64,000 bases of DNA, taken from Piscinibacter sp. (GTDB lineage: Bacteria > Pseudomonadota > Gammaproteobacteria > Burkholderiales > Burkholderiaceae_C). Shown piece by piece: positions 46,600 to 53,726 of the stretch (positions are counted from its first letter, which is position 1; each line of letters opens with the position of its first letter). The stretch is taken from assembly GCA_017983795.1 (NCBI GenBank), contig JAGOAS010000015.1:41006-105005 (forward strand), read 5' to 3'. A program made the position numbers and the translations under genes. The notes beneath the pieces are model-generated. The model worked only from the letters and a program-made list of their open reading frames with translations. It was not told the origin of the DNA and ran no database searches.

Positions 46600-47649
<1,050 letters not shown>

Positions 47650-47654
47650 TCGCG

Positions 47655-47671
47655 ATCCCGTTCGGGCTGAG
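47655..47671 (+). repeat. Left piece of an intergenic inverted repeat, interrupted by the IS
   Basis: ATCCCGTTCGGGCTGAG is identical to the first 17 bases of the uninterrupted element copy beginning at 57774. The rest of this copy continues at 48881 on the other side of the insertion sequence. Confidence 0.85.
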
Positions 47672-47686
47672 GTTCTATGGTCGCTG

Positions 47687-48649
47687 TCAAGCGCGGCCGT
47701 TGGTGCGCAGACGCGCAGGGTCGAAGTCGCTGCGGTTTTTGAACAGGCTGAAGGCGACGCGCACGAGCTTGCGCGCGAGCACGATCAGGGCCGCTGTGCT
47801 GGGCAAGCCCTTGGCGCGTTCGCGCTCGTACAGCGCGCACCAGCTCGAGGTGCGCGCGGCCGACATGGCGGCATTGAACAGCAGCCGGCGCAGCTCGGCG
47901 GGCCCGCGCTTGGACAGGCAACGCCGGCCACGGCGGTTGCCCGAGTCCATCGGGCGCGGGTCGAGCCCGGTGAAGGCCACCACCGTGTCCGCCCCGGCCG
48001 AAGGCAGCCGAGTGAACAACGCCAGCAGCGCGGCTGCGCTGAGCAACCCCAGCCCGGGCACGGAGGTGATGTGCTGCAACGCCTGAGCGCCATCGGGGAC
48101 GGCGGCGGCCGCCTGGGCGATCTGCTTGTCCAGCCCCGCCACGGCCGTCTTCAGCGGCTGCAGCACGGCTTGCAGCAGCGCCGGCTGGTCCTGCAGGCCC
48201 TGGCGCAGTGCTGTCGTGTGGCGTACCAGCGTGGCGCGCCGACGCAGCAGCTCTTGCAGCCGCTGCAGCTGCGCCGTGCTGGGCTGCCAGGCGTGCAGCT
48301 GGCCATGCTCGTGGGCGATGTAGCGCGCCAGCACGAGCGCATCGAGCCGGTCGGTCTTGCCGCGCTGGCCCACCGCGCGCGCATAGTGCTTGACGTCGCG
48401 CGGGTTGAGCACGTACACGCGCAGCCCGCGCTCGTGCGCCAGCTCGGCCAGCCGCAGGTGATACCGCCCGGTGGCCTCCATCGCCAAGACCGCCGTGCGC
48501 GGCAGGCCGGCCAGCCAGCGCCGGATCGAGCTGTCGTCGTTGGCGATGCGCCGCACCCCAGGCTGAGCGTGCCAGGCCACGTCCAGCTGCGTGCTGGCCA
48601 CGTCCACGCCGATGAAGCTCATCGACTCGACAGGCGAATTCGCTTTCAT
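47687..48649 (-). CDS. IS110-family transposase (DEDD recombinase)
   Basis: A 320-residue protein. The N-terminal RuvC-like DEDD domain has Asp in FIGVDVAST, Glu in AMEATGRYH and the Asp pair in KTDRLDALVLARY. A coiled-coil linker follows. The C-terminal Tnp domain has SVPGLGLLSAAALLA and FTGLDPRPMDSGNRRG with the catalytic-serine region. ATG 48649 was chosen; MSFIGVDV at 48622 is an alternative. It cuts and rejoins DNA through a circular intermediate guided by a bridge RNA in characterised relatives. Confidence 0.92.
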   Translation of the reverse strand: MKANSPVESMSFIGVDVASTQLDVAWHAQPGVRRIANDDSSIRRWLAGLPRTAVLAMEATGRYHLRLAELAHERGLRVYVLNPRDVKHYARAVGQRGKTDRLDALVLARYIAHEHGQLHAWQPSTAQLQRLQELLRRRATLVRHTTALRQGLQDQPALLQAVLQPLKTAVAGLDKQIAQAAAAVPDGAQALQHITSVPGLGLLSAAALLALFTRLPSAGADTVVAFTGLDPRPMDSGNRRGRRCLSKRGPAELRRLLFNAAMSAARTSSWCALYERERAKGLPSTAALIVLARKLVRVAFSLFKNRSDFDPARLRTNGRA

Positions 48650-48659
48650 GGTGCAATCG

Positions 48660-48830
48660 CGATCGCCGGGCGTGGGGCTTGCCGCAGCGGCGTGAGCTTG
48701 CAACGAATCGGCGCTGGCCTCGCTGCCGCGCCAGGTTCCTTATCGACGCTCGATGCGGCGGGTGGGATGCGTCTCAGCGGGTCGGTCGGACGCCTTCTAC
48801 GTTCGCCGATGCTTGTCGATGTCCCTCCTC
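48660..48830 (-). ncRNA. Predicted IS110 bridge RNA
   Basis: The upstream non-coding end can be read as two guide loops. In the first, a GGGA/TCCC stem (48825-48822 / 48767-48764) encloses TCGACAAGC (48819-48811), identical to the left target half, and GCTGAG (48778-48773), complementary to the right half CTCAGC. In the second, GAACCT (48738-48733) matches the right IS end and TGCAAG (48702-48697) pairs with the left IS end CTTGTA through one G-T pair, around a GGCGC/GCGCC hairpin. This is the architecture known for IS621. Boundaries are approximate; no folding was computed. Confidence 0.68.
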
Positions 48831-48880
48831 GCCCGGCATCTCGCTTCTCCTTCTCGTGGTTGAGGAGGGGAAACCATACA

Positions 48881-48940
48881 AGCTTGTCGAAGCCCACCGC
48901 GTGCCACACAGGGCCCTTCGACAAGCTCAGGGCGAACGGA
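48881..48940 (+). repeat. Right piece of the interrupted inverted repeat
   Basis: AGCTTGTCGAAGCCCACCG and the following arm CCCTTCGACAAGCTCAGGG continue the repeat broken off at 47671. The element lies at the 3' ends of the convergent metH part 1 and HD-GYP-like genes, as the second copy lies between two convergent genes at 57.8 kb. Confidence 0.85.
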
Positions 48941-48948
48941 GTGGTGGG

Positions 48949-50157
48949 TCAGGTCATCTGCAGCAGCCGCTGCAGGTTGAGCCGCACCTTCACCTCGTGC
49001 GGCGCCACGCCGCCGGTCACCGCATGGGTGGGCATGTGGGTCTGGCGCAGCGCCGGCGAGGCCAGCACGGCGCCGGCCGGGTTGACGATGCAGGCCACCG
49101 TCGGTGCATTGGCGCGCCGGCCGCGGCGCAGCACGACGGCGGTCTCGCCATCGGCCAGCTTGACCAGCGAGCCGGGCGGGTACAGGCCCACCGCCTTGAT
49201 GATCGCCGAGCCGGCTTCGTCGGGCTTGCCCTGTTCGTCGAGGTAGGCCGCCTTGGCGGCGGCCGTGGCCGAGAGTGCCTGGCGGCCGCGGCGCGGGCTC
49301 ATGCGCGCGGCGAAGACGTCGGCGCGGCGGATCAGGCGCGCGAGGCGCTGCGCCGGCTCCATGGCGGCCAGCGGCCCGCCCGGGGCATCGTGGTGGTGCA
49401 GCACGGCGTCGAGCCAGAGCGCATCGTCCACGCCCGCGGCACGCAGCGCCGCGACGGCACGCGCCGGGTGCGCATCGACCTCCGCGCGTTGCTGCGGCGT
49501 GAGGGGGCTGCTCTGCTGGGCGAGCTGGTTCTGCAGCGCGGTCATCGCGACGTTCATGCTCAGCGCCGCGCAGCGCAGTGATTGCCGCTGCGCCGGTGTG
49601 ATGCCCGGCACGTGGCGCGAGGCCAGCTCGGCGACCACGGCCACCAGCAGCGCATGGTTGGCGCTGTAGTCGCGGTACTCCTGCGTGGCCGCGTGCACCA
49701 GCAGCAGCAGCGCGTCGTCGGCGTCGCTGTTGACCTGCTCGAACATCGTCTTCTGCAGCTGCATCAGGCGGCCGGCGAAATCCGGCTGCGCGGCGTCGCG
49801 CAGCAGCGCGGCCAGGCGCACCTGCAGGTTGGACCAGTCGGTGGGCGCGTCGTCGAGGCGGCGGCGTCCGGCCGCCGAGGGCGCGGCCAGCTCCAGCGAT
49901 TCGGGGCGCGCCTTGGCGATGCGGCCGAGCAGCTCGTCGTTGCGCACCAGCTCGTGCACCTTGCCGGCGATGGCGCGGCGCAGCGCTTCGCCGTCCTGGT
50001 CGTCGACGTAGAGGTCGCGCGCGGCGAGCTGCTCGAGCTGGTCCGCGTCCATCATGGTGCCCTTGGGCACGAGCAGGCAGCCGCTCTTGTCGCGCAGCGC
50101 GAACAGCGTCGGGAAGCCGGCGCGCAGCACGTCCGGGGGAAGCGGTTGGTAGGCCAT
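48949..50157 (-). CDS. HD-GYP-like protein with degenerate HD motif
   Basis: A 402-residue cytosolic protein. Residues about 150-330 follow the HD-GYP layout (SANHALLVAVVAELASR, CAALSMNVAMTAL, DAHPARAVAALRAAG, VLHHHDAPGG, LIRRADVFAARMSPRRGR), but the HD dyad reads MN and GYP is absent, so metal binding and c-di-GMP hydrolysis are doubtful. The N-terminal 90 residues (LRAGFPTLFALRDKSGCLLV) occur with such proteins in betaproteobacteria. It may be a binding-only sensor. Start ATG 50157 (MAYQPLPPDVL). Confidence 0.75.
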   Translation of the reverse strand: MAYQPLPPDVLRAGFPTLFALRDKSGCLLVPKGTMMDADQLEQLAARDLYVDDQDGEALRRAIAGKVHELVRNDELLGRIAKARPESLELAAPSAAGRRRLDDAPTDWSNLQVRLAALLRDAAQPDFAGRLMQLQKTMFEQVNSDADDALLLLVHAATQEYRDYSANHALLVAVVAELASRHVPGITPAQRQSLRCAALSMNVAMTALQNQLAQQSSPLTPQQRAEVDAHPARAVAALRAAGVDDALWLDAVLHHHDAPGGPLAAMEPAQRLARLIRRADVFAARMSPRRGRQALSATAAAKAAYLDEQGKPDEAGSAIIKAVGLYPPGSLVKLADGETAVVLRRGRRANAPTVACIVNPAGAVLASPALRQTHMPTHAVTGGVAPHEVKVRLNLQRLLQMT

Positions 50158-50854: not shown

Positions 50855-50953
50855 CTGCCCGAGGAGCGTTGCGACGACCGCTGCGGTCGCCAGGCTCGGG
50901 CAGGGCGGTGCGCCAGCGAATCCTTCGCGCGCCGCAGCCAACGGCGCTCACCC
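50855..50953 (+). ncRNA. S-adenosylhomocysteine (SAH) riboswitch
   Basis: The leader of metH part 2 has the SAH-riboswitch core: P1 CTGCCCGAG (50855-50863) pairs with CTCGGGCAG (50895-50903) over nine bases. Next to P1 lies the conserved GAGCGTTGCGAC, with the P2 hairpin GCGAC/GTCGC (50871-50875 / 50886-50890). The distal AACGGCGCTCACC supplies CGCTC (50945-50949), which pairs with GAGCG (50864-50868) as the pseudoknot. SAH riboswitches turn genes on when SAH builds up, here raising methionine synthase. The Shine-Dalgarno GGAAG follows 30-40 bases downstream. Confidence 0.9.
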
Positions 50954-50999
50954 GACACACAGGTCGCGGTGAGCCGCGGCCCCCGCTGGAAGCGCCGCG

Positions 51000-53726
<2,727 letters not shown>

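Follow-up and report, generated by a model that had tools for sequence, protein, structure and literature searches.

A candidate bridge RNA in the left end of an IS110-group element inserted in a REP palindrome

The non-coding left end of an IS110-group insertion sequence, located in the 64,000-nucleotide stretch of DNA analysed here (the window), almost certainly encodes a bridge RNA, and its mechanism would be that of IS621. Comparative sequence analysis establishes (i) the ends of the element and its CT core; (ii) four putative guides in order; (iii) a conserved predicted two-loop structure and (iv) covariation of three of the guides (left target, right target, left donor) with the sites they would read.

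The element and its insertion site

An IS110-group insertion sequence is confirmed in the window. The element is complete, lies on the minus strand and spans 1213 nt with both CT cores included (47670-48882); it comprises one gene, a left end of 233 nt and a right end of 17 nt. The CT core is common to the target and the joined ends. The ends were placed by reference to intact REP copies and to the ends of relatives, which read CTTGTATG and (C/A)ATAG(A/G)(A/T).CT. The gene (47687-48649, minus strand) encodes a DEDD transposase, or recombinase, of 320 amino acids from the ATG at 48649, with an alternative in-frame start at the ATG at 48622. Both Pfam domains, PF01548 (RuvC-like DEDD) and PF02371 (Tnp), score above cut-off, and phmmer relates the protein to the recombinases of IS621 (PDB 8wt6, E 7.2e-30) and ISCro4 (PDB 9t56, E 1.2e-28). 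In the alignment igvD, mEatG, KTDrlD and the serine of pmdSgn line up with IS621; this serine stands opposite chain residue 243, which is S241 by a hand count with an offset of 2. The acidic residues of the aligned motifs are those we take to be catalytic.

IS1111 elements share the transposase superfamily and, according to the part of PMC11187229 drawn on here, their RNAs likewise hold stretches complementary to each target strand. That the left end encodes an IS1111-type seekRNA is nevertheless vanishingly unlikely, as the long non-coding end (233 nt) precedes the gene and just 17 nt follow it, the subterminal inverted repeat comprises no more than CCATA/TATGG, with the ATA/TAT of the group, and the left guide comes before the right guide. 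These are features of the IS110 group, as far as the excerpts of PMC11208160 and PMC11187229 describe them. The long non-coding region downstream and the long subterminal inverted repeats that mark IS1111 were both absent from the element.

The element interrupts a REP palindrome within one of its arms. Most of the palindrome, including the left target (LT) and matching intact genomic copies, adjoins the left end (48883-48942, minus strand), and the remainder, recognised by comparison with intact REP copies and including the right target (RT), adjoins the right end (47654-47669, minus strand). Read on the minus strand, the target consists of LT TCGACAAG (48890-48883), the core CT (48882-48881) and RT CAGCCCG from 47669 down. 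Rejoining the flanks with a single CT restores a REP palindrome that resembles intact copies of the genome; with the copy L003 the identity is 96% over 78 bp, ungapped. The genome holds 55 matches to the query region, 53 of which are neither the element nor the remnant on contig C35 described below; many of the 53 are the two strands of a single palindrome.

Of seven same-genus genomes, four (L130-L133) show the blocks that match the first metH gene and the neighbour gene beyond the element at a distance of 1-10 nt; therefore neither REP nor element is present at the locus. In the remaining three (L134-L136) that neighbour gene was not found in the stretch searched, and the transposase was found in no stretch of the seven. 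The REP itself (window 47654-48942) looks like an insertion separating the first metH gene from the neighbour gene, with four of the seven genomes lacking both REP and element. metH is apparently split in two genes (window 46600-47649 and 51000-53726), between which lie the element and two more genes; the homocysteine methyltransferase part was assigned by Pfam and the remainder judged by eye. Rfam places an SAH riboswitch at 50855-50956, upstream of the second metH gene.

Candidate guides and the sites they match

An earlier note on this DNA claimed four guides in order upstream of the transposase, and all four were located. On the minus strand they run LTG, RTG, LDG, RDG, for left and right target and then left and right donor, which is the order of a bridge RNA. 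LTG (ATCGACAAGC, 48811-48820) shares nine contiguous bases with the target (TCGACAAGC), and RTG (GCTGAG, 48773-48778) would pair through six bases with CTCAGC. LDG (GGAACCT, 48733-48739) contains the GAACCT of the right end, six matching bases, and RDG (TGCAAG, 48697-48702) would pair with CTTGTA by five Watson-Crick pairs and one G.T wobble. The donor, again on the minus strand, is formed by LD CCATAGAAC (47680-47672), the core CT (47671-47670) and RD TGTATGG (48880-48874). When the region is shuffled with dinucleotides preserved, the 9-mer alone recurs in 50 of 20,000 cases, whereas the four motifs in order recur in none of 20,000.

This last result bears on an alternative in which the resemblance arose by accident or descent, with a captured piece of REP in the left end and chance behind the other short matches. 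REP copies are indeed abundant in the genome, with the 53 matches given above, and the sequence of LTG occurs unchanged in the REP. The shuffles argue against this origin for four ordered motifs, and relatives at targets other than this REP carry, at the same place, different guides that match their own targets. We regard a captured REP as extremely unlikely. The two-loop order and logic of an IS110 bridge RNA, which the earlier note had proposed, is upheld by these relatives, in which candidate guides change with sites. The same note had explained the choice of arm by a preference of RTG for CTCAGC over CTCAGG. The genome has 24 TCGACAAGCTCAGC sites and 17 TCGACAAGCTCAGG sites and the insertion is a single one, therefore the C arm would be expected by chance more than half the time; RTG as the cause of the arm choice was dropped on these counts.

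The clade is sparse. Transposase matches (E 1e-50) occur in 6 of 399 genomes in the family and 7 of 399 in the order, and (E 1e-40) in 9 of 369 in the class, the window's genome being counted in each figure. Five of 62 loci from genome contigs reached 180 bits in tblastn. No transposase match was found by tblastn in plasmids (E limit 1e-40) or phages (E limit 1e-30), and viral contigs gave two weak loci only, which were left unused. In all, 30 elements with a tblastn score of at least 180 bits were gathered, the window's own counted once (L001 and L083 are the same locus). Leaving out L024, which begins within the gene, and L086, whose left end is off the contig, gave 28 elements in 18 clusters; the transposases of the relatives are 39-54% identical to that of the window. 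The RT test, run without L095 and L088 (flank short or missing), covers 26 of the 28 elements and 17 of the 18 clusters. Lower-scoring loci (for example L025-L037) lie outside every permutation test. The permutations treat clusters as unrelated, and kinship between clusters is still in the statistics.

Among these relatives three of the candidate guides are shown to covary with their sites, namely both targets and the left donor. With the LTG window anchored on the GGAGGG motif, independently of any match, LT agrees with its own guide at 6.28 of 8 positions versus 3.50 with the guides of others (0 of 20,000 permutations, 18 clusters). In 13 of 18 clusters no other guide fits better than the own one, and 19 of 28 elements match at 7 or 8 of 8 positions. 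Poor fits are seen in five of the 18 clusters: L103 (2/8), L106 (3/8), L102 (4/8), L087 (5/8) and L104 (5/8). For RT and RTG the agreement is 4.00 of 5 versus 2.85 (0 of 20,000 permutations, 17 clusters), and in 14 of 17 clusters the own guide ranks first or ties for first; fits are poor in L021 and L093 (2/5 each). Controls are null, whether the target is shifted 6 upstream (19,217 of 20,000) or 5 downstream (18,356 of 20,000) or LT is set against the RTG window (12,637 of 20,000). The homologous elements were checked for different sites with unchanged guides; the opposite was seen, though some relatives fit poorly.

The donor side varies less. LD agrees with its own LDG at 4.83 of 6 positions versus 4.04 with others (0 of 20,000 at the expected register, 18 clusters), a result that rests on two positions because only two left-donor positions vary. 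Six registers were tried on alignment columns, and the other five gave 13,730, 20,000, 19,895, 7,301 and 91 of 20,000. With guide windows misplaced in 5 of the 28 rows (L109, L101, L103, L088, L107) the figure is 979 of 20,000, which is not significant. LDG tracks the right end through the variants GAAT, GAAC, GGAT and GGAA. RDG reads CAAG in 18 of 18 aligned RNAs, and RD is invariant because all 28 elements carry CTTGTATG, the string that served to find their left ends.

Two further cases lie outside the permutations. Genome G775 carries five copies with identical LTG, each after a target ending in ATGCAGG, and their right flanks all differ. Upstream flanks are similar in four of the five copies, which therefore may lie in a repeat; L096 has an unrelated upstream flank, yet shares ATGCAGG with the other copies. 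In L025, from a Fimbriimonadaceae MAG, ATCCCTCG stands before the left end and again after GGAGGGACC, although the end reads CCTGTATGG.

Further copies were observed. A 130-bp copy on contig C35 (L002 1501-1630 / L116, G000:C35:9336-9465) is 88% identical to the target-loop part, with changed guides (LTG TCGACCGGC, RTG GCGCAG). There is no transposase match in the surrounding stretch, L116. The copy is without the left end and the RDG side and is therefore probably a remnant. At three G000 contig ends (C3, C5 and C17; L114, L115 and L117) lies a same-clade IS110 element with LTG CCTTGGGGGC. These copies look like a second multi-copy G000 element split by assembly; its target CTTGGGGGT fits the guide at L115 and the fit is poor at L114 and L117 (CCGCGCGGG). 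In a single-contig genome, L127 (G298:C1:1915645-1915770) is a partial copy with left end, target loop and LDG only; it ends inside the donor loop, and its target CCTGCGGTG equals its guide exactly. Bridge-RNA matches in G286, G354 and G237 lie at contig ends, where a transposase search at 1e-10 found C-terminal pieces only in G286 and none in G354 or G237. Matches without a nearby transposase were considered as solo guide RNAs; none was convincing. A second, partial bridge-RNA match (51.7 bits) occupies L088 1089-1205, just upstream of the L088 element, and L084 has a left end that exceeds those of the other elements by some 150-170 nt, the extra length falling between CTTGTATG and the guide motif.

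Predicted fold and the closing helix

The body of the predicted RNA, target loop followed by donor loop, spans 48660-48841 on the minus strand, as do all features of the fold given here; it is delimited by folds and by covariance model R1 (98.2 bits), the window sequence being one of the 18 from which that model was built. A predicted 5' hairpin (48841-48876) comes from the minimum-energy fold only. The GGGA/TCCC stem that the earlier note had closing the first guide pair is present in the minimum-energy fold (48825-48822 with 48767-48764) and is helix 2 of the model alignment. The basal stem of the donor loop pairs GCCGCA (48754-48759) with TGCGGC (48681-48686) in the same fold, and the corresponding stem covaries in relatives. 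The earlier note had also raised burial of the guides in stems as a point against it. They are buried in part, since 5 of 10 LTG and 3 of 6 RTG bases fall within helices of 2-3 bp in the minimum-energy fold; the pairing there is AGC/GCU, of LTG with RTG, and both guides contain the core.

Taken singly, the window sequence folds with a modest advantage over shuffles (z -1.85, equalled by 9 of 200; z -2.35, 5 of 200), and the relatives L091 and L029 fold no better than shuffles. Rfam 15 at gathering score, over the whole window, returns only the SAH riboswitch and no bridge-RNA match; over 48600-48960 with E up to 5 it returns two matches, both far under their gathering scores. RNAalifold on a plain MAFFT alignment of the 18 sequences, before any model, gives 22 pairs, 12 of them with two-sided changes. 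Model R1, built here with the structure given by hand, matched 21 of 22 sources at 22 places, among them L086, L122 and L025 from outside the model, and gave no match in L031. The model alignment has 88.3% of its cells paired and shows two-sided changes at 18 of 26 pairs, versus 3 to 8 in slid controls, counts that reflect the fitting of this alignment to the structure.

Another reading is a structured leader that regulates the transposase gene in cis, as a 5' UTR structure or attenuator with no guide. The leader, which is predicted to be structured, immediately precedes the gene and shares its strand, and the ISPpu9 transposase is reportedly controlled by two small RNAs and a 5'UTR structure, according to the part of PMC8450116 drawn on here. 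Such a regulator does not predict that loop bases agree with the insertion site or with the element end, and as the sole function it is very unlikely. A guide RNA may have a second role as cis regulator.

In the bridge RNA predicted for this clade, a helix, P1, seems to close both loops together. Its 5' strand GCCGGGCG (48830-48837) pairs with its 3' strand CGCCCGGC (48665-48672) in the minimum-energy folds, where it is present for the window and for L091, and there is covariation in relatives. Two-sided changes are seen in 6 of 8 pairs, yet just 77.8% of cells are paired; these model-fitted counts lean toward P1 because it was proposed by hand from the window fold and then tested. RNAalifold on the MAFFT alignment missed P1. 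A permutation of arms that is independent of the model alignment, with arms picked by eye, gives 7.00 of 8 for own partners versus 6.24 for those of others (0 of 20,000). The signal is in the outer part, GCCGGG against the tail giving 3 of 20,000 with Watson-Crick pairs and 31 of 20,000 with G-U included. GGGGTGG gives no signal against the tail (3,600 and 4,485 of 20,000) and no clear signal against the 3' side of the target loop (1,152 and 8,942 of 20,000), therefore the idea of a conformational switch is weak.

A fuller proposal would be that the clade has an architecture of its own, in which P1 (GCCGGG and following bases with the 3' tail; GCCGGGCG/CGCCCGGC) joins both loops in a three-way junction and GGGGTGG, from the 5' strand of P1, alternatively extends the target-loop stem, providing a possible switch that couples the loops. 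IS621 would differ, its loops being separate and supplied by two RNA molecules in the synaptic complex. We consider this rather doubtful and put it forward tentatively.

Proposed mechanism and comparison with known systems

A predicted sigma-70-like promoter, TTGACA-17-TATGGT, would be reconstituted at the joined ends. Its -35 half, TTGACA (47685-47690), and its -10 half, TATGGT (48873-48878), both on the minus strand, come to lie 17 nt apart in the joined-end sequence, so that the promoter would exist in the circle only. Of the 27 elements for which both ends are available, 26 place their best -35 match at a spacing of 17 nt and L107 at 19; the -35 matches at 6/6 positions in 3 elements, 5/6 in 12, 4/6 in 8 and 3/6 in 4, and the -10 at 4/6 in 26 of 27. 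The -10 position was anchored on TTGTAT, and these promoter counts stand without a shuffled control. A junction promoter is described for IS621 in the portion of PMC11208158 used here.

By homology with IS621, we propose that the element excises as a circle, whose joined ends would form the promoter that transcribes both RNA and transposase. The first loop would pair with both strands of the TCGACAAG-CT-CAGC site in the REP, and the second loop with the joined ends GAAC-CT-TGTA. The DEDD/Ser recombinase would then join target and donor at CT. The position of the element within the REP palindrome would be due to the target loop.

With transposases far from that of IS621, the relatives put the bridge-RNA rule to a natural and independent test, as guides and sites change together. 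The element contributes a compact recombinase that targets REPs and whose target code is readable, and the possible closing-helix variant bears on the coupling of the loops, which would matter for the engineering of bridge recombinases.

The element resembles E. coli IS621 (PDB 8wt6), as described in the excerpts of PMC11208160 and PMC11208158, in its DEDD and Ser recombinase, its CT core, a left end that starts CTTGTAT, a left-end bridge RNA whose target loop precedes its donor loop, the order of its guides, a REP target and a junction promoter. It differs in that the REP is another one and the kinship of the transposases is seen only at a phmmer E of 7.2e-30. Model R1 run on IS621, taken from a plasmid, gives at best 4.2 bits, at a place away from the IS621 bridge RNA. 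The fold of the IS621 RNA has two loops, separate from each other, behind a 5' hairpin. PMC11208158, in the part drawn on, assigns nt 34-98 to the target loop and nt 110-177 to the donor loop. In the minimum-energy fold of this RNA just 2 bp, formed with coding sequence, link the two ends, and in its centroid no pairs do. In the window's clade, by contrast, the predicted structures carry the closing helix P1, and loops in series with no helix closing both, as in IS621, were not found. ISCro4 (PDB 9t56) has a homologous recombinase (E 1.2e-28), the comparison covering the protein. ISPpu9, ISPpu10 and ISPa11 are likened by description, as REP-targeting members of the IS110 family that use Pseudomonas REPs; the part of PMC1525189 consulted places 7 of 7, 7 of 7 and 6 of 6 copies, respectively, within a REP. 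The element joins the known IS110 bridge-RNA class, possibly with a distinct RNA architecture.
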